Part shown: piece by piece, positions 24,713 through 58,770 of the stretch
Layout: every line of letters begins with the position of its first letter
Position numbering within the stretch: position 1 is the first letter of the stretch
Origin: Sphingomonas sp. Y38-1Y
GTDB lineage: Bacteria; Pseudomonadota; Alphaproteobacteria; Sphingomonadales; Sphingomonadaceae
Direction of reading: 5' to 3'
NCBI RefSeq assembly: GCF_032391395.1
Contig: NZ_CP135916.1
Location: 992,001-1,056,000, forward strand
Length of the DNA stretch: 64,000 nucleotides
Program-made: the position numbers and the translations under genes
Notes under the pieces: generated by a model
The model's database searches: none
Seen by the model: the letters and a program-made list of their open reading frames with translations, nothing else
Told to the model about the DNA's origin: nothing

Positions 24713-25858
24713 TCAGAGCGCTTTCTCGAAGATCGTGTAGCGCTTGTTGATCCGGCTCTGGATCGCGTCGGCGATCGCGATCATCCCCTGATTGTCGTCG
24801 AGGATCCAGCCGATCTCCCCGCGCGATGCGCCGTAATGCGCGACCGCGTCGCGGCGGATATATTCGATCATCATGAAGGCGAGCTGGCTCGCCATTCGCG
24901 ACGCCTGAAGCCGCTTGACCACGCCCATCAGCGGCACGCGCATCGTCCGCGCCTTGGGCCGGCGCAGCCACAGGAGCAGCTTGGCCCAGCCGAAGGGGAG
25001 GAGGTTGCCCTTGAGCGGCGCCACCGCCTCGTTGAGGTCGGGCAGCGTAATCATGAACGCCACCGGCTCGCCATCCAGTTCGGCGATGCGGATGAGGTCG
25101 TTGAACACGATCGGCTTCAGCTTCTTGCCGACATCGTCGATCTCTGGCTGGGTCAGCGGCACGAAGCCCCAATTGTCGCCCCAGGCGTCGTTGAGGATGC
25201 CCAGGATGATCGCCGCTTCCTCGGCGAATTTCGCCTTGTCGACCTCGCGCACGCGGATGCGCGCATTGCGCTCGCCCGCGGCGACGATGCGCTGGACGAT
25301 CGGCGGGAATTCCTGGGTAATGTCGAGCTCGTAGGTGACGAGTTCCTTCGCCGGCGTATAGCCCGCCGCCTCGACCCAGCCGCGCTGTTCGGGCTTGTTG
25401 TGGCCCATCAGCACCGTCGGCGGATGATCGAAGCCTTCGGTCAGGAGGCCCGGCTGTTCCCAGATCGACAGGCTGATGGGGCCGAGCGCGCGCGTCAGCC
25501 CCTTGCCCTTCAGCCATGCTTCCGCCGTGCGGATGAGCGCGGCCGCGACCTCGCCATCCTCTGCCTCCAGCAGGCCCCATTGGCCGGTGCCGGGACCAAA
25601 GCCGCGGTCGGCGGGCATGGTCAGCGCGAGCGTGTCGACATGCGCGGAAATGCGACCCACCACCTTGTCGCCGCGCTCGGCGAGGAAGAGCTGGCCCTCG
25701 GCATGGCTGAACCAGCCGTTCTTCTTGGGGCTGATCGTTTCCGCCACTTCCTGTCGCAGCGGCGGTACCCAGTTCGGGTCGTCGGCGTTCAGGCGATAAG
25801 CAAGGTCGATGAAGGCGCGGGTATCGGCCTTGGTGGCGACGGGGCGAACCTGGATCAT
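24713..25858 (-). CDS. Probable bacterial ceramide synthase (sphingoid base N-acyltransferase, GNAT-like)
   Basis: A 381-residue cytoplasmic protein of a GNAT-like family often labelled N-acetyltransferase or dATP pyrophosphohydrolase. The N-terminus (MIQVRPVATKADTRAFIDLAYRLNADDPNWVPPLR), GLLEAEDGEVAAALI, the motif ILNDAWGDNWGFVPLTQPEI near residue 225 and the C-terminal RYTIFEK are its constant features. The Caulobacter member is known as bCerS and adds the fatty acyl chain to the sphingoid base. Here it lies 5.7 kb from spt, acp and cerR, with lptFG between. The family match is from recognised motifs; the ceramide role is inferred from that homology and the neighbourhood. Confidence 0.7.
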   Translation of the reverse strand: MIQVRPVATKADTRAFIDLAYRLNADDPNWVPPLRQEVAETISPKKNGWFSHAEGQLFLAERGDKVVGRISAHVDTLALTMPADRGFGPGTGQWGLLEAEDGEVAAALIRTAEAWLKGKGLTRALGPISLSIWEQPGLLTEGFDHPPTVLMGHNKPEQRGWVEAAGYTPAKELVTYELDITQEFPPIVQRIVAAGERNARIRVREVDKAKFAEEAAIILGILNDAWGDNWGFVPLTQPEIDDVGKKLKPIVFNDLIRIAELDGEPVAFMITLPDLNEAVAPLKGNLLPFGWAKLLLWLRRPKARTMRVPLMGVVKRLQASRMASQLAFMMIEYIRRDAVAHYGASRGEIGWILDDNQGMIAIADAIQSRINKRYTIFEKAL

Positions 25859-25941
25859 GGGAGCTTCACGTCCTCCTGCGGGGCGACGCTGTCAAGCGTC
25901 CAGAACCGCCGGATTGCACGCCAACATACTGCCACTATCTC

Positions 25942-27060
25942 ATGTCAATGGATGCGATCATGAACATGCTGACGGTGAACCAGATCGACGCGAGCGGCGT
26001 CGCCGCGCGGCGGATGGCGGCGCCGGTGCGCGACCGCATGGCGGAGGACAAGGCGATGCTCCGCACCGCCGCCGAGCTGACGCGCGACCTGTTGAAGCCC
26101 AATCCGACGATCTACTGGACCGACCTGATCGCGTCGAGCGCGCTGGGCTATGGCGCGTTGATCGCGTCGATGACGCTGGCTTCGACCGGCTGGGCGGTGG
26201 CGGCGTTCGTCGTCGCGGTGCTCGCGCTCTATCGCGCGGCGAGCTTCATCCACGAAGTGAGCCACATCAAGCATTCGGCACTGCCGGGGTTTCGCACCGG
26301 CTGGAACGCGCTGATCGGCGTGCCGCTGCTGGCGCCGTCGTTCCTGTATGAGGGCGTCCACAACCTCCACCATCAGCGGACCAAGTACGGCACCGCCGAC
26401 GATCCCGAATATCTGCCGCTGGCGCATATGAAGCCGTGGAGCGTGCCGCTGTTCGTGCTGGTCGCCGCGCTGGCGCCGATCGGCTTCCTGATCCGCTTCG
26501 GCATCATGGTGCCGGTCGGGCTGGTCAGCCCGAAGCTGCGCGCCGAGATCGATGCGCGCTTCTCGGCGCTGGCGATCAATCCCGACTTCCGCCGCCGTCC
26601 GATCGAGGGCGAGGCGCTGACGCTGTTCCGCCGCTACGAGCGCGCGGCGAGCGTCTGGGCGATCACGCTGGTGGCGCTGACGGTTGCGGGCGTCGTGCCG
26701 CTCAAGGCGTTCGCCATCTATCTCGGCGCGATCTCGGCGCTGATGATCATCAACCAGGTCCGCACGCTCGTCGCCCATCTCTGGGAGAATGAGGGCGAGG
26801 CGATGTCGGTGACGTCGCAGTATCTCGACTCGGTCAACGTGCCGCCGCCGGGAATGCTGCCGTTACTGTGGGCGCCGGTGGGCCTGCGCTATCATGCGCT
26901 CCACCATCTCCTGCCGGGGCTGCCCTACCACTCGCTGGGCGAGGCGCATCGCCGTTTGTCCGGCGTGCTGGAGGCGCATTCGCCCTTCCATGCCGCGAAC
27001 CATCGCGGATTGCCGGGGCTGCTCGTGCGGCTGGTGCGCGGGACGTTGGGCCAGCGCTGA
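25942..27060 (+). CDS. Membrane fatty acid desaturase family protein
   Basis: A 372-residue integral membrane diiron enzyme. Three histidine boxes are present: HEVSH (near residue 103), HNLHH (near 139) and HALHH (near 317), in the spacing of membrane desaturases/hydroxylases, with hydrophobic segments between. It is divergent from the ceramide synthase-like gene (83 bp between starts), so it could act on sphingolipid or phospholipid acyl chains. The actual substrate cannot be read from the sequence. Confidence 0.85.
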   Translation: MSMDAIMNMLTVNQIDASGVAARRMAAPVRDRMAEDKAMLRTAAELTRDLLKPNPTIYWTDLIASSALGYGALIASMTLASTGWAVAAFVVAVLALYRAASFIHEVSHIKHSALPGFRTGWNALIGVPLLAPSFLYEGVHNLHHQRTKYGTADDPEYLPLAHMKPWSVPLFVLVAALAPIGFLIRFGIMVPVGLVSPKLRAEIDARFSALAINPDFRRRPIEGEALTLFRRYERAASVWAITLVALTVAGVVPLKAFAIYLGAISALMIINQVRTLVAHLWENEGEAMSVTSQYLDSVNVPPPGMLPLLWAPVGLRYHALHHLLPGLPYHSLGEAHRRLSGVLEAHSPFHAANHRGLPGLLVRLVRGTLGQR

Positions 27061-27068
27061 GCGCGCTG

Positions 27069-27146
27069 GTGCTCCCGCGCAGGCGGGAGCCCAGGGTGGC
27101 GAACGCTGTTCCGCGTGGCTCTGTGCTCCAGCCTGCGCGGGAGCAC
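27069..27146. repeat. Inverted repeat with GTGCTCCCGCGCAGGC arms
   Basis: Perfect 16-bp arms at 27069-27084 and 27131-27146. The left arm also forms its own small hairpin (GCTCCCGC/GCGGGAGC). It lies just after the desaturase gene. Confidence 0.7.
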
Positions 27147-27157
27147 GGCACCGTTCA

Positions 27158-27240
27158 CCCGTTCGTGCTGAGCTTGTCGAAGCACGTGTCAAAGCGTAGC
27201 GCCACATAACACGTCCTTCGACAGGCTCAGGACGAACGGG
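27158..27240. repeat. REP-like hairpin, 32-bp arms and 19-nt loop
   Basis: Arms at 27158-27189 and 27209-27240 pair with few mismatches around 19 nt. The consensus words are GTTCGTCCTGAGCCTGTCGA and GAAGGACG. It matches the geometry of the element at 7349-7431 and shares words with 32841-32941. It fills the space between the convergent desaturase and lptG. Confidence 0.8.
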
Positions 27241-27248
27241 GTGTCAGT

Positions 27249-28346
27249 TTATTCCTCCGTCCGGATCAGCACCGCTTCGCCGATCAGGAAGAACAGCAGG
27301 AACGGCGCCCACGCCGCGAGGAAGGGCGGGTAGGCACCGAGATTGCCCATCGCAAGCGCGAAATTGTCGGCGACGAAGTATGCGAAGCCGAGCCCCATGC
27401 CGATCACCGCGCGGACGAACAGCTTGCCCGACCGCGCGACACCGAACGCCGCGACGGCGCCCAGCAGCGGCATCAGCACGGACGACAGCGGGCCGGACAG
27501 CTTGTGCCATAGCGCGCCTTCTAGCGCCTTGGTCGGGCGACCGGCGGTCTCCAGCTCGTCGATTGCGCTCGCCAGGGCAGAGAAGGACAGGCCGTCGGCA
27601 TCGACGCTGGCGAGCGTGAACTGGTCCGGGCTGATGCCGTCGCCGATATGCGCGCTGCCCAAATTCTCGAGCCGGCCCGCCGCGACGTCGAACCGCTTGG
27701 CACCCTCGACGCGCCAGCCCTGACCCTCGCGCCGGCCGGTGGTGGCGCTCAGGACCGAGCGGAGCGTGCCGCCGTCGCGGACATAGAGCGTGATGCCCGC
27801 GATCCGCACGGCGTCGCCGCGGCCCGCGACCTGGCGGACGTTCATCAGGTTGTTGCCCTCTCGCACCCACACGTTGGCGCGGTCGCCGCGATCGACGGGG
27901 AGGGGGCCGTAATCGACCCGCTGCCACTGGTCGAGCGTGGCGGTGGCGCGGGCGACGACGCGCTCGTTGAAGGTGAAGCTCACCACCGCGACGCCGAGCG
28001 CGGTGACGATCAGCGGCGCCAGCACCTGATGCGCCGACAGCCCGGCCGCCTTCATCGAGACGACCTCGCTGTTCTGGTTGAGCGTCGACAGTGTGATGAT
28101 CGTGCCGAGCAGCACCGCAAAGGGCAGGAAGCGGGCGATGATCTCCGGCGTGCGAAGGCTGACATAGCGCAGCACCTCGCCCTGGCCGTTGCCCGCATAG
28201 GCAAGGATGCGGCCGCTTTCGGAGAGCAGATCGAGCGCCTGGAGGACGAGCACCAGCGCCGCCAGGATGGCGAAGGTGCGCACCAGGAACATCTTGCCCA
28301 TGTAGAGCGTGACGGTGCGCGACGGGAAGAAGCTGGCCGCGCTCAT
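27249..28346 (-). CDS. lptG: LptG-type LPS/lipid export permease
   Basis: A 365-residue YjgP/YjgQ family permease, half of the LptF-LptG dimer that, powered by LptB, extracts lipid from the inner membrane. It has three N-terminal and three C-terminal transmembrane helices around a periplasmic beta-jellyroll domain (residues 125-255). RFLPFAVLLGTIITLSTLNQNSEVVSMKAAG is the conserved coupling region. Start and lptF stop overlap by 4 bp. Sphingomonads carry glycosphingolipids in place of LPS, and this pair sits inside the sphingolipid region rather than beside lptD. Confidence 0.85.
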   Translation of the reverse strand: MSAASFFPSRTVTLYMGKMFLVRTFAILAALVLVLQALDLLSESGRILAYAGNGQGEVLRYVSLRTPEIIARFLPFAVLLGTIITLSTLNQNSEVVSMKAAGLSAHQVLAPLIVTALGVAVVSFTFNERVVARATATLDQWQRVDYGPLPVDRGDRANVWVREGNNLMNVRQVAGRGDAVRIAGITLYVRDGGTLRSVLSATTGRREGQGWRVEGAKRFDVAAGRLENLGSAHIGDGISPDQFTLASVDADGLSFSALASAIDELETAGRPTKALEGALWHKLSGPLSSVLMPLLGAVAAFGVARSGKLFVRAVIGMGLGFAYFVADNFALAMGNLGAYPPFLAAWAPFLLFFLIGEAVLIRTEE

Positions 28347-29533
28347 GCCATCCGCCTCCGGCCGGGCAGTCGCCGGGCGATCGCCGATGCCGCCTTGCCG
28401 AACCAGCGTTCGAGCGCGGCGATCGGCTGGCCGCCGGGGACATAGGCGGTCTGATAGAACATCCAGACGATCAGCGCGGCGAACACCGTGAACGGTCCCC
28501 ACAAGGCGATGATCGGATCGACGCGGCCGAGCCCGCCGATCGCTTCGCCATATTCGTTGATCTTGTGATAGGTCACGATCATCACGATCGACAGGAAGAC
28601 GCCCAGCGCCGAGGACGATCGCTTCGGCGGGATGCCGAGCGCGAGCGCCAGCAGCGGCAGCAGGAACATCGTCGCCACCTCGACCACGCGGAAGTGGAAG
28701 GCGGCGCGGCTGGTGTCGCGGATCTCCTCCGTCACGCGCGGATCCTTGCCGAGCACGACGAGCTCCGGCAGCGTGCGTTCGAGGTTGCGGTCGCCGCGCG
28801 CGCGGAACTGGCCGAACTGCGGCAACGGGATCGGCAAATCGTGACTGGTGAAGGTCAGTACGCGCGGCTGGGTGAAGCCGGGCGAATTATGGACCAGCGC
28901 TCCGCGCGTCAGGCGGAAGATGATCGTGTTGGGATCGTCGGTGCGCAGGAACTGGCCCTTTTCGGCGGTCGCGGCGTACCAGCTGTTATCCTTCGACCGG
29001 AAATGGACGAAGATGCCCGACAGGTCGGCGCCGTTCTTGCGGCTTTCCTCGATACGGAGCGCCATGTCGGGGCCGAAGCTCGTAAACTCGCCGACCTTGA
29101 TCGAGGCGCCGAGCGCACCCGAGCGCAGCTCGAACCGCAGCTCCTCATAGGCGTAGCGCGCCTTGGGCTGGACATAGCCGACGATCGCCAGGTTCAAGGC
29201 GGCCAGCGCAATCGTGTAGAGATAGGGGACGCGCAGCAGCCGCGAATAGCTCATGCCGACACCGCGCAGCACGTCGAGCTCGCTTTGCGCCGCAAGCTTG
29301 CGGAAGGCGAGGAGGATGCCGAGCATCAGCCCGATGGGAATGCCGAGGCCGAGATATTCGGGCAGCAGGTTGGCCAGCATCTTCCACACGACGCCGACCG
29401 GGCCGCCCTCTGTTGCGACGAAGTCGAACAGGCGCAGCATGCGGTCGAGCACCAGCAGCATCGCCGCGATGACCAGGGTCGAGAACAGCGGCACCGCGAT
29501 CAGGCGGGCCATGTAGCGGTCGATCGAGGCCAT
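28343..29533 (-). CDS. lptF: LptF-type LPS/lipid export permease
   Basis: A 396-residue partner of LptG with the same layout of three helices, periplasmic domain and three helices. The N-terminus IDRYMARLIAVPLFSTLVIAAMLLVLDRM and the coupling region GIPIGLMLGILLAFRKLAAQSELDVLRGVG are typical of LptF. It precedes lptG in the leftward direction with a 4-bp overlap and lies 85 bp after the hybrid kinase. Whether this is the only LptFG pair of the organism cannot be told from the window. Confidence 0.85.
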   Translation of the reverse strand: MASIDRYMARLIAVPLFSTLVIAAMLLVLDRMLRLFDFVATEGGPVGVVWKMLANLLPEYLGLGIPIGLMLGILLAFRKLAAQSELDVLRGVGMSYSRLLRVPYLYTIALAALNLAIVGYVQPKARYAYEELRFELRSGALGASIKVGEFTSFGPDMALRIEESRKNGADLSGIFVHFRSKDNSWYAATAEKGQFLRTDDPNTIIFRLTRGALVHNSPGFTQPRVLTFTSHDLPIPLPQFGQFRARGDRNLERTLPELVVLGKDPRVTEEIRDTSRAAFHFRVVEVATMFLLPLLALALGIPPKRSSSALGVFLSIVMIVTYHKINEYGEAIGGLGRVDPIIALWGPFTVFAALIVWMFYQTAYVPGGQPIAALERWFGKAASAIARRLPGRRRMA

Positions 29534-29618
29534 GGGGGCTGTGGCGGTGCCTTTTCACGCAGGTCGGGGACCGCGGGGGACGGCCGGCATCGTCTATAGG
29601 GCCTCGCCGACGCGCTTG

Positions 29619-31538
29619 TCAGCCCCCGGCGGCGGCCGCGATCGCATGCGACAGCGCCGCGAGCGTGAAGGGCTTTCGGATCACCGAATCGTGGCCGAGC
29701 GCGTCGTCGTCCAGATCGCCGGCGAACCCGGTCATGAACAGGACGCGCAGGTCGGGGCGGTCGGTGCGGAGCGCCTGGACCAGCTCGGGCCCGGTCTGGC
29801 CGGGCATCAGCACGTCGGAAAGGATCAGGTCGACGCGCGGCATAGCGGCGATGGCGCGGGGCGCGTCTGCCGGATCGCCGCAGCCGACCGCACGATGACC
29901 GAGTTCGCCGAGCGCGGCGAGCACCGACTTGAGCACGCGCGCGTCATCCTCGACGACGAGGATGTCCAGACCGGTGCCGGGTTCGCTCGGGACGTCGGCG
30001 GGCTCGGCCGGCGCGGGGACGGCGGCGGCGTCCTGGAAGCGGGGCAGATAGAGCGTGACCGTCGTGCCCTCGCCGGGTGCCGACTCGATGGCGATCTCGC
30101 CGCCGAAGCGGCGCACGGTGCCGAACACCTGGCTGAGGCCGAGGCCGGTACCGCGCCCGACCGGCTTGGTGGTGAAGAAGGGCTCGAACACGCGCGCCTT
30201 GATCTCGGGCGTCATGCCGTGGCCGCTGTCGGTGACGGCAAAGGCGACATGCTCGCCCGCCGAACACCCGCCCACCTCCGCCGCCCCAAGCTTCACCGCC
30301 CGCGCGGTGAGCGTCAGCGTGCCGCGCCCTTCCATCGCGTCGCGCGCGTTGACGGCGAGGTTGAGGATCGCGTTTTCGAGCTGATGGCGGTCCGCCCACA
30401 CGCACCAGCCCTGCGCCTCGTCGCGCGTCTCGATGCGGATCGCGTCGCCCAGCGTGCGGTCGAGCAGCGGGGTCATGCCGGCGATCAGCGCCGGCGGGTC
30501 GATCGCCTCCGGCGCGACGGGTTCGGCGCGGGCGAAGGCGAGCAGCTGGCGCGTGAGCGCGGCGGCACGCTGACCACCCTCTGCCGCAAGGTCGAGGTGG
30601 CGGGCGAGCGCCGGATCGGTGGCGGCGTGACGGCGCGCGAGCTCGATTCCGCCGAGCACGACGGCGAGCATGTTGTTGAAGTCATGGGCGATGCCGCCGG
30701 TCAGCTGGCCGATCGCCTCCATCTTCTGCGCCTGGCCGAGCTGTGCCTCCGCCGCCGCGCGCTCGGCCTGTTCGGCGCGCAGGCTTTCGGTCGCGGCGGC
30801 GACGGCGGCCTCGAGTTCGGCGGCGCGGGCGCGTTCCGCGTCGGCTTCGTCGGCGGCAGCGCGGCGCTCGGCGATCGCCTGGAGAAGATGCCAACCGACG
30901 AACAGGCCGATGGCGAGCAGCGCAATGCCAAGCGCGAGGAGAAAGCCCGCAAGCCGGTTCGATCGTGCGACCGTCGCGTCGAGCTCGATCGAGCGGGCAT
31001 CGAGCAGCAGCCGCTCTGCCGCCATCGTCTGACCGAGCAGTTCGTCGATCCGGCGCAGCGATGCGCTGTCGCGGGCGTCGTAGAAGGCGGCGATCGCGCG
31101 ATCGGGTTGGAGGTCCGCCGCGCCGGAAGCGATCGTCGCCAGTTCGCGTCCGCGCGCGTGATACGCCCGGTCGAGCGCCACGACCCGCGACCGCTGAAGC
31201 GCGTTGTCGCCCATCATCCGCGCGAGCAGGTCCATCTGGCGGCCGGCCGAAGCCCATTCGCGCGCGAACCGCACGCCCAGCTGCTTGTCACCGCTGATGA
31301 CGAAGCGGCCGAGCGCCGCCTCCGCCTGAGACAGGTTTTCCCCCAGCGAGCGGGCGAGGATCATAACCTCGAAACTGTGCGAGCGGCGCTCGATCGCGCG
31401 GTCGCGGGCGGTGTTGGCGTCGACGACGGTGCGCACCAGCGCGAACGTCACCGCCATGCCGAGCACGAGGATCAGCGCGACCGCCCAGCCGCGCCAGTCG
31501 TCGTGCAGCCAGCGCGGGCGGCGGAGCCTTTCGTTCAC
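29619..31538 (-). CDS. Hybrid sensor histidine kinase with CHASE3-like sensor and receiver
   Basis: A 639-residue protein. A transmembrane helix ([18 protein letters not shown]) is followed by a periplasmic CHASE3-like helical domain (about residues 35-180), a second helix ([19 protein letters not shown]), a coiled coil, a HisKA domain with [17 protein letters not shown] (His near 281), an HATPase domain (N-box [27 protein letters not shown]) and a C-terminal receiver ([12 protein letters not shown], Asp in [10 protein letters not shown], Lys in IRKPF). All catalytic residues look intact. The GTG start lies 14 bp after the spt stop, so the kinase is probably translated from the spt transcript. 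Confidence 0.87.
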
Positions 31539-31552
31539 GCCGCCCCCGCAGG

Positions 31553-32821
31553 TCAGCCGATCACGCCGACGGCGCGTCCGGCTTCGGCGAACATCGCGCT
31601 GATCGCCTCGATCTGCTCGGGCCGGTGCTCGGCACAGAGCGAGCAGCGAAGGAGGAAGGTGCCGGCCGGCGTCGCGGGCGGGCGGGCCATGTTGACGTAG
31701 AGGCCTGCCTCCAGAAGTGCCTGCCACATCATTACCGCCTGTTGCTGGTCGGTGAGGATGACGGCGATGATCGCGCTGTCGGCGTCCTCGGTGCCGAGCT
31801 TGAACCCGAGTGCCTTGAGGTTTGCGTGCAGCGTGCGGGCGTTGGTCCAAAGCCGCTCGCGCTTTTCCGTCGCGGTCATCAGCTTGGTGATGGAGGTCGC
31901 GGCGGTCGCGACCACCGACGGCGGCAGCGATGCGGTGAAGATGTACGGGCGGCAGGCGAGGCGCATCACCTCGAACTTGGGATGGTTCGAGACGCAGAAG
32001 CCGCCGACGGTGCCGACCGACTTGGAAAAGGTGCCGATGACGAAATCGATGTCGCGGCCGAGTTCCAGCCCCTGCGCCTCATAGACGCCGCGGCCATGCT
32101 CGCCGAAGAAGCCCATCGAGTGCGCCTCGTCGGAGAGCGTCATCGCGCCGTGCTTGCGCGCGACCGCGACCATCTGGTCGAGGGGGGCGATGTCGCCGAG
32201 CATCGAATAGACGCCCTCCAGCACGACGAGCTTGCCCGCTTCCTTGGGCAGGCGCCCGAGCCGCTTGTCGAGGTCCTCGACCGAATTGTGGCGGAAGCGG
32301 ACGACCTCTGCATTGCCGAGCGCGCAGCCGTCGTAGATCGAGGCATGACTGTCGGCGTCGAGGATGATGTAGTCGCCCTTACCGGCGATGGTCGAAATGA
32401 TGCCGAGATTGGCCTGGTAGCCGGTCGAGAACACCATCGCATGGTCGGCGCCGTAGAAGGCGCGCAGCGCGTCCTCAGCGGCGATATGGTCGCGGAAGGT
32501 GCCGTTGAGCATCCGGCTGCCGTTGGTACCGGATCCGAACGCGTCGAGCGCCGCCTTGCCCGCGGCGATCACGTCCGCATCGAAGGTCATGCCCATGTAA
32601 TTGTAGGTGCCGGCGAGGATCGTTTCCTTGCCGCGGATCACCGCCTCGGTCGGCGAATGCACCTCGTCCATCACGATCGCGAACGGGTCGCGCACGCCGG
32701 TGGCGAGCAGCGCCTCACGCTCGGCGATCAGCGCGTCGAACTTGGAAAAGAGGTCGCGTTCGGCCGGGGCGGCTGGCGCTTCGGCGGGGAGTTCGTGGGC
32801 GGTGGCGGCGGCTTCGGTCAT
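31553..32821 (-). CDS. spt: Serine palmitoyltransferase
   Basis: Spt condenses L-serine with a long-chain acyl thioester to 3-ketosphinganine, the first step of sphingolipid synthesis. It is a soluble, PLP-dependent alpha-oxoamine synthase of 422 residues. By my count His159 (in LDADSHASIYDG) stacks on PLP, Asp231 and His234 (in LSDEAHSMGFFG) bind the cofactor ring, and Lys267 (in GTFSKSVGTVGGF) forms the Schiff base. These agree closely with the Sphingomonas paucimobilis enzyme. An acyl carrier protein gene precedes it, separated by a 128-bp gap with a repeat; the hybrid kinase follows 14 bp later. Confidence 0.95.
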   Translation of the reverse strand: MTEAAATAHELPAEAPAAPAERDLFSKFDALIAEREALLATGVRDPFAIVMDEVHSPTEAVIRGKETILAGTYNYMGMTFDADVIAAGKAALDAFGSGTNGSRMLNGTFRDHIAAEDALRAFYGADHAMVFSTGYQANLGIISTIAGKGDYIILDADSHASIYDGCALGNAEVVRFRHNSVEDLDKRLGRLPKEAGKLVVLEGVYSMLGDIAPLDQMVAVARKHGAMTLSDEAHSMGFFGEHGRGVYEAQGLELGRDIDFVIGTFSKSVGTVGGFCVSNHPKFEVMRLACRPYIFTASLPPSVVATAATSITKLMTATEKRERLWTNARTLHANLKALGFKLGTEDADSAIIAVILTDQQQAVMMWQALLEAGLYVNMARPPATPAGTFLLRCSLCAEHRPEQIEAISAMFAEAGRAVGVIG

Positions 32822-32840
32822 CGGTCTGCTTTCAACAATT

Positions 32841-32941
32841 CCGTTCGTGCTGAGTAGCCGCTGAGCCTGTCGAAGCGGCGTATCGAAGCATCCTTCGATA
32901 CGGGCCTTCGCCTCCGCTCAGTCCCTACTCAGGACGAACGG
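32841..32941. repeat. Compound inverted repeat between acp and spt
   Basis: Outer arms CCGTTCGTGCTGAGTAG (32841-32857) and CTACTCAGGACGAACGG (32925-32941) enclose an inner hairpin GTATCGAAG/CTTCGATAC and the word GAGCCTGTCGA. It belongs to the same word family as 27158-27240 and interrupts the acp-spt transcript, so it could tune the ratio of the two products. Confidence 0.7.
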
Positions 32942-32949
32942 TCTTTGGC

Positions 32950-33195
32950 TTAGTCCTGCTTCAGCTTCTGCACCGCGTCGACGAGCTGGCCGACGGTCTC
33001 GATCTCGGCCTGCATGTTCATGGTGATGAGGATGTCGAACTCGTCCTCGATCGCGGCGACGAAATCCATGACGGTTAGGCTGTCCCATTCGAGATCGCCG
33101 GCAAAGGTCGTCGCCTCGGTGAGCGCCACGCCCTTCTTGTTGAAGGGCTCGATCTGGGCGGCGACGGTGTCGAAAACGGCCTGGCGGTCGGACAT
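32950..33195 (-). CDS. Acyl carrier protein of the sphingolipid cluster
   Basis: An 81-residue ACP. The phosphopantetheine attachment Ser lies in the motif WDSLTVMDFVAAIEDEFD (near residue 39), followed by the usual acidic recognition helix. It differs from housekeeping AcpP in the DSL context and in ITMNMQAEIETVGQLVDAV. Linked ACPs supply the acyl thioester to Spt in Caulobacter (AcpR), so the same role is likely. It is read leftward, 66 bp after cerR. Confidence 0.88.
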   Translation of the reverse strand: MSDRQAVFDTVAAQIEPFNKKGVALTEATTFAGDLEWDSLTVMDFVAAIEDEFDILITMNMQAEIETVGQLVDAVQKLKQD

Positions 33196-33261
33196 TCGGG
33201 CTCTTTCTCAAGTCTCAGAGGCCGCATGTGACAGGGCAATGCGGCGGCTTTTCGGCGGGGC

Positions 33262-34160
33262 TTATAGCAAGCCGGCGGCGCGATACCACTCGGCGGTGGC
33301 GGCAAGGCCGGGCTCGGTCGCGATCGACGGGCGCCACAGCGCGGGCGGGGGGCGGCGATCGGCGCGGACGACCCAGTCGGGATGGCTGAAATAGGCGGCG
33401 CGGTCGGGGGTGAGCTTCGCCCGGTCACCCTGCACCGCGCGGGCGATGGACGCGGAGAGCATCAACAGCGCGCGCGGTGTCGAGAGCGGCAGGACGCGGC
33501 GCCCGACCGCGCGGCCGAGCGCGCGGGCAAAGTCGACATGCGACCAGCCCATCGGCGCCTCGTCATCCACCTCGAACACGCCCGCGGCGTCGCTGCCGGC
33601 GAGCGCGAGGAGCAGGTCGGCGAGGTCGTCGACATGAATCGTCGAGAAGCGGCCGGGCGGGGGGAGGGGAACGACGCCCTTCTTTGCCAGCCGGAACAGC
33701 TCCAGCATCTCGAGGTCGCCGGGGCCGTAGATGGCGGGCGGCCGCACGATCGCGGCGTTCGGCAGCGCCGCGGCGACGCGCGCCTCGCCCTCCGCCTTCG
33801 ACCAGCCATAGGTGGAGAGCGCGGGCTCCCGCGCCGAGAGCGAGGAGACGTGGACGAAGCGGGGCGTGCCGGCGGCTTGCGCGGCGGCGATCACCGCCTC
33901 TGTGCCGGTGACGTTGCCGGCGACGAAGCCGGCGCGGTCGGGCGCGTTGACGACGCCGGCGACGTGGATGACAACGTCCGCGCCTTCGACGAGCGATGCG
34001 AGCGCCGCCGGCTTGTCGAGCGCTCCGGCGATCCAGGTGACGCCTTCGCGGTCCGGCTGGTTGCGGCGGGTGAGAGCGCGGATGGTGTGGCCCACCCCGA
34101 GCGCGCGATCGATCAGGCGCTTGCCGACGAACCCCGTGCCGCCGGTAATTGCGATTACGC

Positions 34161-34164
<4 letters not shown>
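33262..34164 (-). CDS. NAD(P)-dependent epimerase/dehydratase family, probable ceramide reductase CerR
   Basis: A 300-residue extended SDR. GGTGFVGKRLIDRAL is the nucleotide-binding loop, VHVSSLSAR carries the catalytic Ser, and YGWSKAEGE (near residue 119) the Tyr-x3-Lys pair. RPPAIYGPGD is typical of the epimerase branch. In Caulobacter the equivalent gene next to spt and acp encodes CerR, which reduces the 3-keto group during ceramide formation. The 4-bp overlap with proB downstream and the adjacency to acp support that role, which remains an inference. Confidence 0.75.
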
Positions 34165-36373
<2,209 letters not shown>

Positions 36374-55620: not shown

Positions 55621-58600
55621 CTAGATCCGCCGTTCGATCGCGGCGCGGGTCGCGGCGGCTGCCGCCAGCAGTTCGGGCACCAGGGGCGATAGCGTCGCGC
55701 CGGCTTCGCAGGCGGTTTCGATGCGGCGCGCGACCTCGGCAATACGGTCCGCCCCCACGTTGAGCGCGGCCCCCTTCAACGCATGCGCCTCCGCCGCCGC
55801 GGCGACGCGCGCGTCGGTTTCGATCAGTCGCGCGATGCCTTCCGGCCGCGCGGCGACTTCGTCCCGCATCATCGCCAGCAATCGCCTGGCATTGTCCTCG
55901 CCGATCGTCGCGCGAAGCGCGTCGAGCTTGGCGGCATTGAGGATCGGACGCTCGTCGCGCGGCGCCGCGTCGGCGAGCTGGCGCAGGCGGTCTAGCAATG
56001 CGGCGCTGTCTATTGGTTTGGTGAGCAGGTCGGTGAGGCCCGCATCGGTATAGAGCGACCGCCGCTCCAGCGCGGCATCGGCGGTGAGCGCGAAGATCGG
56101 CGTGTCGGCATTGGGACCGCCGCCGCTGCGGATGACGCGGGTCGCCGACAGCCCGTCGAGCTCCGGCATCTGCATGTCCATCAGGATCGCGTCATAGCGG
56201 CGCACCGACGCCGCCTCGACCGCAAGCCTGCCGTTCTCGACGCTGTCGATCGCATGGCCGTCGCGGCGGATCAGCGCCTCCACAAGGGTGCGGTTGATCG
56301 CATTGTCCTCGGCGAGCAGCAGCGACAGCGGCCGGGTGGGCGCGGCGGTCGGTGCGCTGCTCGCGGGCAGCGTGTCCATGGGCGCGGCGAGGCGGAGTTC
56401 GAAGTGGAAGCAGGCGCCCTTGCCGGGCTCGCTCTCGACCCGGATCTCGCCGCCCATCGCCTCGACCAGCCGGCGGGTGATGGCGAGGCCCAGGCCCGTG
56501 CCGCCGAAGCGCCGCGTGGTCGACGGATCGGCCTGGACAAAGGGTTGGAACAGCCGCGCCTGTGCGTCGGCGGCGATGCCGATGCCGGTGTCGCGCACAC
56601 GCCCGCGCAGGAGCGGCGCCGATGCCGCGCCGGTCAGCGACAGCGACAGCTCAACGCTGCCCGTCGGCGTGAACTTGACCGCGTTGCTGATGAGGTTGGC
56701 GATCACCTGTCGCAAGCGCACGGGATCGCCGCGGACGTGCAGGTCGCGGCCGACCGGCAGCGACAGGCTGAGTGCCAGGCCCTTGTTGGCGGCGGCGTGG
56801 CTGAACAGGTCGATCGTGCTGCGCGCAAGCTCGCCAAGGTCGAAGTCGACTGCTTCCAGCGCCAGCGCGCCGCTCTCGATCTTGGAGAAGTCGAGCACGT
56901 CGTCGAGGACGGTCATCAGGAGCGACGCCGACTGCTCCAGATTGTCGAGATAGCGCGTGCGGTCATCGTCGGCCGGGCTGCCGCGCAGCAACTCGATCAT
57001 GCCGAGCACCCCGGTCATCGGCGTGCGGATCTCGTGGCTGACGGTTGCGACGAAGTCGCTGCGCGCGTCCGCCAGCGCATGCGCCTCGTCCCGAGCGGCG
57101 ATCAGCGCCTGCTCGATCGCGACCTGGTCGGTGACGTCGCGAAAGACGCCGACGATGCCGACGATCTGGCCGTCGAACGATCGTTCGGGCTGACCGTGCG
57201 ATTCGACGTCGCGCATTTCGCCGTCCTGCCGGCGGATGCGGGCGCGGAAGGTCCAGGGTTCGCCCGCTTCGATCCCGCGCGCGATCAGCGCCTCGACGCG
57301 CGCGCGGTCTTCGGCCGGATAGGCCTGCATGCCTTCGTCCAGCGTGGGCGTGTCGCCGATCTCGCGGCCGTGAATGCGGTACACTTCGTCCGACCAGATC
57401 AGGCGATTGTCGATGAGATCGTACCGCCAGTGGCCGATACCCGCCATCCGCTCCGCCATGGTCAGCAGTCGATAGCTCTCCTCCCGCTGCGCGGCGGCGC
57501 GCGCGGCCTCGATCTCCGCCTCCCGTCGCCGGCCGATGTCGCGGACGCTGGAGATGAACTCGACCGGCTCGCCGCTTGCGTCGCGAACGAGGCTGTAGGT
57601 CGCCTCTAGCCAGACATAGCGGCCGTCGGCATGACGCTGGCGGTAGGTGGCAGAGGGGTGCTCGACGCCCTCGAACAGCGACCGGCAGGCACGCTCGACA
57701 CGCGCGCGATCCTCGGCATGGATCGTGGTCAGCGGGCTTTCGCCGATCAGCGCGGCGGGTGGATAGCCCAGGATCGCCTGCGATGCGGGCGAAGCATAGC
57801 GGCGGATGCCATCCAGGCCGACGCGGACGATCATGTCGCCGCTGTGCCGCGCGAGCAGGCGATAGCTGCGCTCGCTCTCGCGCAGCCGGTCGGTCAGGCG
57901 GCGGCGCTCGACCAGCGTGGCGGCGACGGGAAGCGTCGACATGACGGTGACCGCGATGAACGTCTGAAGGTAGAGGACGCGCTCGCCGACCGAGTCGAGG
58001 AGGCCGGAGATGGGGCCGTGCCCCGACATCGTCTGGATTGAGGCGATGACCGCGACGATCGGTATCGTCAGCAGGACGCCCACGAACCGCAGGCGGAACG
58101 CGGCGAGCGTCAGGCCGGGCAGGATGATGAACAACGCGGGATATCGCGTCTGGTCGAACACCAGCACCGTGAGAAGGGCGGTGGCGAGCGCGGTTGCCGC
58201 CGCCTCGATCAATCGACCCTGCCGCAGCAGCGCGCGGCTGTCCGAATGGAAGGCGACGAGGATGATTGGGCCGACGACCAGCATGCCGAGCGCGTCGGCA
58301 GCAAACCAGTGGAGCACGACGAGCGAGAAGATGTTGTTGCCGCTCGCATGGACGACTGCGGCGCCCACCAGCGCCCCGATCAGCGACGCGACAAGCCCGG
58401 CGAACAGCATGAACTGGGCGAGATAGCGCGACGAATGGACCGGCAACCGTCCGAAGCGGCGGAGCAGGCATAGCGCCGTCGCGATCTCGATCATGTTGGC
58501 GAGCGCGAGCCCGACCGCCGCGATCGACAGCATGTCGGCAAGGACGTAGGCGCTGAACAGCCCCGCCGCGAACCCGGTCAGAATGAGGCGGAGTGGTAGC

Positions 58601-58770
58601 GACGGAAAGCGCAGCAGCAGCGCCACGACGACCGCGTTGGAAAGCCAGAGCGGCGCGATCCCCGGCTGCGACTTGGCGAGCAGGAGCCCGGGTACCGACA
58701 GCAGCGTGCTCAGCAGCCATGTGAGCGCTACCGTCGCCAATCGCGATCCGAAGGGATGCGCGGCACTCAT
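55621..58770 (-). CDS. MASE1 hybrid histidine kinase with receiver and HPt domains
   Basis: A 1049-residue multidomain kinase. It has a MASE1 membrane sensor (residues 1-285, about eight helices; LAKSQPGIAPLWLSNAVVVALLL, HWFAADALGMLVVGP), two PAS/PAC modules (about 300-420 and 430-560; SYRLLARHSGDMIVRVGLDG, ESYRLLTMAERMAGIGHW), HisKA (SDFVATVSHEIRTPMTGVLG, near 580), HATPase (LISNAVKFT, DTGIGI, GTGLGLAI), a receiver (LLLAEDNAINRTLV, ILMDMQMP, LTKPID; about 815-935) and an HPt domain (HALKGAALNVGADRI, near 1000). All phosphorelay residues are present. The LuxR-type regulator upstream on the same strand is the likely output. Confidence 0.9.
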   Translation of the reverse strand: MSAAHPFGSRLATVALTWLLSTLLSVPGLLLAKSQPGIAPLWLSNAVVVALLLRFPSLPLRLILTGFAAGLFSAYVLADMLSIAAVGLALANMIEIATALCLLRRFGRLPVHSSRYLAQFMLFAGLVASLIGALVGAAVVHASGNNIFSLVVLHWFAADALGMLVVGPIILVAFHSDSRALLRQGRLIEAAATALATALLTVLVFDQTRYPALFIILPGLTLAAFRLRFVGVLLTIPIVAVIASIQTMSGHGPISGLLDSVGERVLYLQTFIAVTVMSTLPVAATLVERRRLTDRLRESERSYRLLARHSGDMIVRVGLDGIRRYASPASQAILGYPPAALIGESPLTTIHAEDRARVERACRSLFEGVEHPSATYRQRHADGRYVWLEATYSLVRDASGEPVEFISSVRDIGRRREAEIEAARAAAQREESYRLLTMAERMAGIGHWRYDLIDNRLIWSDEVYRIHGREIGDTPTLDEGMQAYPAEDRARVEALIARGIEAGEPWTFRARIRRQDGEMRDVESHGQPERSFDGQIVGIVGVFRDVTDQVAIEQALIAARDEAHALADARSDFVATVSHEIRTPMTGVLGMIELLRGSPADDDRTRYLDNLEQSASLLMTVLDDVLDFSKIESGALALEAVDFDLGELARSTIDLFSHAAANKGLALSLSLPVGRDLHVRGDPVRLRQVIANLISNAVKFTPTGSVELSLSLTGAASAPLLRGRVRDTGIGIAADAQARLFQPFVQADPSTTRRFGGTGLGLAITRRLVEAMGGEIRVESEPGKGACFHFELRLAAPMDTLPASSAPTAAPTRPLSLLLAEDNAINRTLVEALIRRDGHAIDSVENGRLAVEAASVRRYDAILMDMQMPELDGLSATRVIRSGGGPNADTPIFALTADAALERRSLYTDAGLTDLLTKPIDSAALLDRLRQLADAAPRDERPILNAAKLDALRATIGEDNARRLLAMMRDEVAARPEGIARLIETDARVAAAAEAHALKGAALNVGADRIAEVARRIETACEAGATLSPLVPELLAAAAATRAAIERRI

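Follow-up and report, generated by a model that had tools for sequence, protein, structure and literature searches.

What does an exporter named for lipopolysaccharide (LPS) carry in a bacterium that appears to lack the LPS pathway? We addressed this question in a 64,000-nucleotide window of the Sphingomonas sp. Y38-1Y genome (contig NZ_CP135916.1, positions 992,001–1,056,000; coordinates without a prefix are those of the window), where the genes for LptF and LptG, labelled "LPS export" by automatic annotation, lie inside a ceramide-synthesis locus. LpxC catalyzes the committed step of lipid A synthesis. No LpxC match was found in any of the 99 genomes of the order Sphingomonadales searched (0/99, window genome included), with Escherichia coli and Caulobacter controls positive; without LpxC, no LPS is expected to be available for Lpt transport, and yet LptFG has been kept. 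Based on sequence comparisons, we consider it quite likely that the region is a combined locus for ceramide synthesis and ceramide-lipid export, in which LptFG would be a dedicated sphingolipid exporter.

LptG (27249–28346, minus strand) and LptF (28343–29533, minus strand) are the only matches to PF03739 in this complete, one-contig genome of 3,584,900 bases, and the pair sits between the genes for bacterial ceramide synthase (bCerS, 24713–25858) and serine palmitoyltransferase (Spt, 31553–32821). LptG scored 306.2 bits against a NCBIfam cut-off of 240 (TIGR04408), and LptF scored 200.2 bits with PF03739 and 226.1 bits with TIGR04407, just below the cut-off of 230. An LptD match is also present in the genome. 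Among 36 genomes chosen from the 99 of the order, LptFG was detected in 35 and both bCerS and Spt in all 36. In 33 of the 36, bCerS has an LptFG match no more than 5 kb away; of the other three, G009 has no LptFG match, whereas G002 and G010 have the two on separate contigs. In named relatives, represented by the best 80 of 578 named bCerS relatives, both LptF and LptG were found in 64 of the 72 loci that have at least 4 kb upstream of bCerS. Outside the order, the distance was 8 kb or less in 23 of 34 bCerS-containing genomes of the class Alphaproteobacteria. The remaining 11 comprise G115 (14 kb), G240 (24 kb), three genomes with both pairs far away, four with bCerS on another contig, and two without LptFG.

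We then compared the number of LptFG pairs with the presence of LpxC and bCerS, using the 36 order genomes and 44 class genomes (the 34 above plus 10 chosen from 203 without bCerS). Four or more LptFG matches (two pairs) were found in 13 of the 15 class genomes that have both LpxC and bCerS, one pair in 17 of the 19 that have bCerS without LpxC (none in G145 and G301), and one pair in 9 of the 10 that have LpxC without bCerS (two in G112). The order genomes have exactly two matches (one pair) in 28 cases, three or four in 7, and none in 1. A simple rule, that the number of pairs equals LpxC plus bCerS, fits 67 of the 80 genomes. Separately, one locus (L022, genome G003) has two separate extra LptF-like genes with no LptG partner within the fetched stretch.

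Phylogenetic analysis revealed two types of LptFG. In the LptF tree (81 rows), one clade with an SH-aLRT (approximate likelihood ratio test) support of 96 unites the LPS-type rows: 12/12 rows from genomes that lack bCerS or have a single LPS-side pair, 8/8 bCerS-distal rows of two-pair genomes, and 6 further rows. All main rows of LpxC-less genomes (38/38) and all bCerS-adjacent rows of LPS makers, that is, genomes with LpxC (8/8), fall outside it, as do four extra LptF copies of LpxC-less genomes. Two-pair genomes without a bCerS-near pair (G114, G212, G282, and G265, whose contigs are broken) have one LptF row on each side, and the extra LptF of G112 stands alone at the end of a very long branch. 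The same split, with a support of 100, was obtained for LptG (76 rows). Forcing the LptF of the order to group with the LPS type cost 137 log-likelihood units and was rejected by the approximately unbiased (AU) test (p-AU = 7.5e-127; 71 of the 81 rows). The window LptFG groups with the bCerS-adjacent pairs of LPS makers; we refer to the pairs on this side of the trees, those of LpxC-less genomes included, as the sphingolipid (SL) type; the Caulobacter LptF2/G2 proteins are not among the named rows of the trees. Neither mark of the LPS type was found for the window pair: it showed no grouping with the LPS-type LptF of LPS makers, and its genome has no LpxC match.

The AU test and the LptF trees that include E. 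coli omit 10 of the 81 rows, namely three LptF-only rows (two from G003 and one from G013) and seven rows on long branches, among them five that are LPS-side or unplaced. Of 78 LptG rows, the main tree omits two, and the E. coli tree and the trimmed residue set omit seven; the residue count covers 77 (L085 is unplaced). No LptFG tree includes the third matches of G018, G035, and G091 or any of the 80 named loci; further matches, such as those of G220 and G288, are likewise absent.

The two types also differ at the positions that contact lipid A. According to PMC6744409, K40 of LptG contacts the lipid A 4'-phosphate, K41 the inner core, and D37 the glucosamines, and K34 binds the 1'-phosphate. 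Positions 40 and 41 (E. coli numbering) are both basic in 19 of 26 LPS-type LptG rows, whereas no SL-type row (0 of 51) has this pair (15/21 and 0/50 in the trimmed set); these counts come from rows related by descent and do not represent independent events. Position 34 does not separate the types, because most rows of both have D. At positions 34, 37, 40, and 41, the window LptG has D-S-G-R and canonical E. coli LptG K-D-K-K. The SL type shares its protein family and gene-pair arrangement with the canonical LPS exporter LptB2FG, whereas it lacks the basic 40/41 pair in 51/51 rows and stands apart in the trees.

A related arrangement is found outside the class. E. coli BL21(DE3) has a cluster of yghO (the bCerS homolog), a fatty acyl-AMP ligase, a short-chain dehydrogenase/reductase (SDR), an acyl carrier protein (ACP), spt, lptG, and lptF, with this second lptFG directly adjoining spt, and holds the canonical lptFG besides. 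Of 5426 complete E. coli genomes, 4060 cover the lptGF stretch of the cluster to at least 80%, and 4047 do so for spt; these counts reflect coverage and not intactness, some listed copies having insertion elements. As a side observation, it is the stretch L180:14283-22067 whose spt and second lptFG occur in about 75% of complete E. coli genomes, and its lptFG is named LPS exporter.

Several observations weigh against LptFG being a dedicated sphingolipid exporter. Thirteen of the 80 genomes break the pair-count rule, and in all these counts the ability to make LPS was read from LpxC alone. Three genomes (G121, G154, and G277) carry bCerS with only LPS-type LptFG; the second pair of G277, considered as a candidate SL type, falls with the LPS type. 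Spt and bCerS occur without any LptFG match in G145 (one contig), G301, and G009 (160 contigs), indicating that Lpt is not needed everywhere. The basic 40/41 pair is also missing in 7 of the 26 LPS-type LptG rows, and the window LptG retains R at 41. Finally, the E. coli cluster LptFG, which was predicted to group with the alphaproteobacterial SL type, joined the canonical E. coli pair in both trees; this sets the BL21 cluster apart from the window locus, although both combine bCerS, SDR, ACP, spt, and an lptGF pair (the BL21 cluster also includes the AMP ligase). The cluster LptG has N-N-D-D at the four contact positions. The placement of the cluster LptF carries a long-branch warning, and grouping of the cluster LptG with the SL type is not rejected (p-AU = 0.21), so both a shared origin and a separate recruitment are possible for the E. 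coli pair.

The best-surviving alternative is that LptFG is a general exporter for some other outer-membrane glycolipid and that its place beside ceramide genes is an inherited gene order without shared function. The three genomes that have ceramide genes and no LptFG match are in line with this. On the other hand, LptFG and bCerS are linked in many families, with varying intervening genes, and a second pair is part of the BL21 ceramide cluster. Moreover, both LptFG types are present in 12 of the 15 LPS makers with bCerS (12 because no SL-type pair was found in G121, G154, and G277), the SL type usually lying near bCerS. We therefore regard a general glycolipid exporter as unlikely. Two of the three genomes without LptFG deserve mention here as an observation in their own right: G145 (locus L089) and G301 encode Spt and bCerS, whereas no match to LptFG or to LpxC was found in either.

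A further explanation is that the LptFG split reflects faster evolution after loss of LPS and not a change of cargo. LpxC is missing in all order genomes and in 19 class genomes with bCerS, which makes relaxed constraint possible. This explanation is nevertheless quite improbable, because two-pair LPS makers carry the SL type beside bCerS (all 8 adjacent rows are on the SL side), and the SL type thus exists alongside LPS. The bCerS tree implied five changes in LPS status, but well-supported branches require only one of them; LPS was thus probably lost several times.

The dedicated-exporter reading also depends on the identity of the gene at 24713–25858 (minus strand), which a first-pass annotation of this DNA had described as a bCerS-like sphingoid N-acyltransferase gene 5.7 kb from spt. 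This description agrees with our results. The 381-residue protein contains NDAWGDNWGFVP, and its alignment with YghO of E. coli BL21(DE3) is full length (383 columns, 40% identity, 275 bits). In section 13 of PMC9386255, yghO, Swit_3908, and DRN02_007910 are listed as counterparts of Caulobacter CC_1154. The family was detected in 38 of 241 class genomes (E up to 1e-15) and Spt in 37 of 241 (E up to 1e-90); at the latter threshold E. coli and Bacteroides controls also matched, neither of which did at 1e-150, and the weakest of the 37 Spt matches had an E value of 3.6e-108 (G277, gene cut by the contig end), all others being 7.5e-132 or better. All 37 Spt genomes carry bCerS, and 37 of the 38 bCerS genomes carry Spt, the odd one being G121. 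No Pfam or NCBIfam match was found at the limits used, and no relative of solved structure by sequence in PDB at E up to 1. The closest named proteins, among the best 120 listed, are from Sphingomonas spermidinifaciens (94%) and S. yantingensis (92%), both labelled N-acetyltransferase. Homology to YghO and co-occurrence with Spt support the assignment of this gene as a putative bacterial ceramide synthase (bCerS/CerS/Aca). That it encodes some other GNAT-type acetyltransferase with no link to ceramide, as the source annotations (N-acetyltransferase or hypothetical among the best 120 listed) and the lack of a curated family match might suggest, is very improbable given the full-length similarity to a counterpart of CC_1154 and its presence in 37/37 Spt genomes. 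A second bCerS-like gene in the window genome (C1:2354273-2355127; 30%) was considered and is probably not a second bCerS because of its weaker match, GNAT domain, and very long branch. A distant bCerS-like protein of this genome, recorded at L091:8561-9946, has its GNAT domain at the C terminus.

The remaining ceramide genes were also recognized in the first-pass annotation, and each was recovered. Spt (31553–32821, minus strand) scored 795.9 bits with NCBIfam NF047603 (cut-off 670), is 47% identical to BL21 Spt, and has 2jg2 as its best PDB match (residues 1–422). The adjoining AcpR-type ACP (32950–33195, minus strand) has a PP-binding domain (36.2 bits, cut-off 20.8) with a DSL motif, and the adjacent CerR-type extended SDR (33262–34164, minus strand) belongs to the Epimerase family (74.8 bits), has the motifs TGGTGFVG and YxxxK, and is 34% identical (141 bits) to the BL21 cluster SDR. 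As had been noted, an AasR-type ligase is missing from the window. A genome search with the AMP-binding gene that stands beside cerR-acp-spt in genome G189, which is not a proven AasR, gave one strong match at C1:31976-33652 (504 bits, 46% identity), about 0.98 Mb from bCerS, and eight further matches of at most 47 bits. A distant aasR has been reported for Sphingomonadaceae, and S. wittichii and S. paucimobilis have the same order, epi(CerR)-acpR-spt, with aca(CerS) some genes on and aasR far away (PMC9386255). Since the gene set has been published for these two species, the ceramide part is known already and is an ordinary part of the locus.

What the earlier reading as a sphingolipid locus had overlooked, with the four ceramide genes correctly in place, is the 5.7 kb between bCerS and spt, which is filled by a desaturase, LptG, LptF, and a hybrid histidine kinase. 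Section 13 of PMC9386255 likewise says nothing about which genes separate spt from aca, and the main text of that paper never uses the term Lpt. Genes were called by codon use, Pfam, and NCBIfam. Reading right to left on the minus strand, the order is obgE (35294–36364, a GTP1_OBG GTPase), proB (34161–35309, glutamate 5-kinase with AA_kinase and PUA domains), both chromosomal neighbours, then CerR, ACP, Spt, the kinase, LptF, and LptG; next come the desaturase, encoded on the opposite (plus) strand, and bCerS, again on the minus strand. The proB/cerR and lptF/lptG genes each overlap by 4 nucleotides, and the gaps are 66 (cerR-acp), 128 (acp-spt), 14 (spt-kinase, with the kinase start as called), and 85 (kinase-lptF) nucleotides. 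A predicted operon is likely to extend from cerR, or perhaps obgE, through lptG.

The divergently oriented gene at 25948–27060 (plus strand) encodes an FA_desaturase-family membrane enzyme (PF00487, 85.3 bits on 25942–27060) with three His boxes, HEVSH, HNLHH, and HALHH. It is present in 66 of the 80 named loci, always on the strand opposite to bCerS (66/66), and is probably a ceramide hydroxylase or desaturase. In Caulobacter, hydroxylation of the acyl chain has been ascribed to a DesA-type enzyme (cited in PMC11324152). FA_hydroxylase (PF04116) was found in 5 of 8 open reading frames (ORFs) in this gap from seven loci outside the family of the window, searched against Pfam, and in 3 of 4 ORFs searched from those named loci that lack the desaturase (14 in all). 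Replacement of one ceramide-modifying enzyme by another at this position is likely. In one metagenome-assembled genome, the stretch between LptG and bCerS includes an ORF for a cyclodipeptide synthase (L138:5647-6456).

The hybrid histidine kinase (29619–31538, minus strand; CHASE3-HisKA-HATPase-receiver) has an HDFNN box; its Pfam domains were found on the longer ORF 29619–31850, and its start was picked by codon use. It lies within the likely spt-lptF operon, which it may tune, and is present in 27 of the 36 named loci that have Spt, LptF, and LptG. Elsewhere in the window, positions 55621–58740 encode another hybrid histidine kinase, a large MASE1-PAS protein that also has receiver and Hpt domains.

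Taken together, the genes suggest a route whose activities and order of steps are predicted by analogy. In Caulobacter, Spt and bCerS are cytoplasmic and CerR is periplasmic (PMC11087976), and we infer that the three enzymes act here in the same way. Spt would condense serine with the acyl group delivered by AcpR, which the AasR encoded elsewhere would charge; bCerS would attach the second acyl chain as an amide; CerR would reduce the keto group; and the desaturase-family enzyme would probably hydroxylate or desaturate the product. Once complete, the (glyco)sphingolipid might be pulled out of the inner membrane by LptF and LptG, presumably with LptB as LptB2FG, and travel over the Lpt bridge to outer-membrane LptD, a route that elsewhere serves LPS export.

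A comparable arrangement is the Caulobacter region CC_1152–CC_1168, which has LptC2 and a second LptF and LptG (LptF2/G2) beside cerS; LptF2/G2 were proposed to carry phosphosphingolipids in PMC11324152, which also states that how sphingolipids reach the outer membrane is not known. Caulobacter has LpxC, whereas the window pair is the sole LptFG of an LpxC-less genome. The same paper calls the sphingomonad genes scattered, whereas spt, LptFG, and bCerS stand together in the window genome; the S. wittichii orthologs tabulated there may already include this LptFG. In the titles and abstracts of the open-licence literature searched, we found neither the pair-count rule nor the split of the trees into two types, and no mention of a residue switch.

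In a broader context, we lean toward the view that alphaproteobacterial LptFG comes in two cargo-specific kinds, one for LPS and one for sphingolipids. The latter may have arisen beside bCerS while LPS was still made, letting several lineages, including the sphingomonads, drop LPS together with the LPS-type pair, and the second pair in about three-quarters of complete E. coli genomes, of the kind found in the BL21 ceramide cluster, may do the same. The simple relation between the number of pairs and LpxC plus bCerS has been hidden by the name "LPS export". The locus offers one clear candidate sphingolipid exporter, together with a set of residues for probing how its cargo might be chosen.

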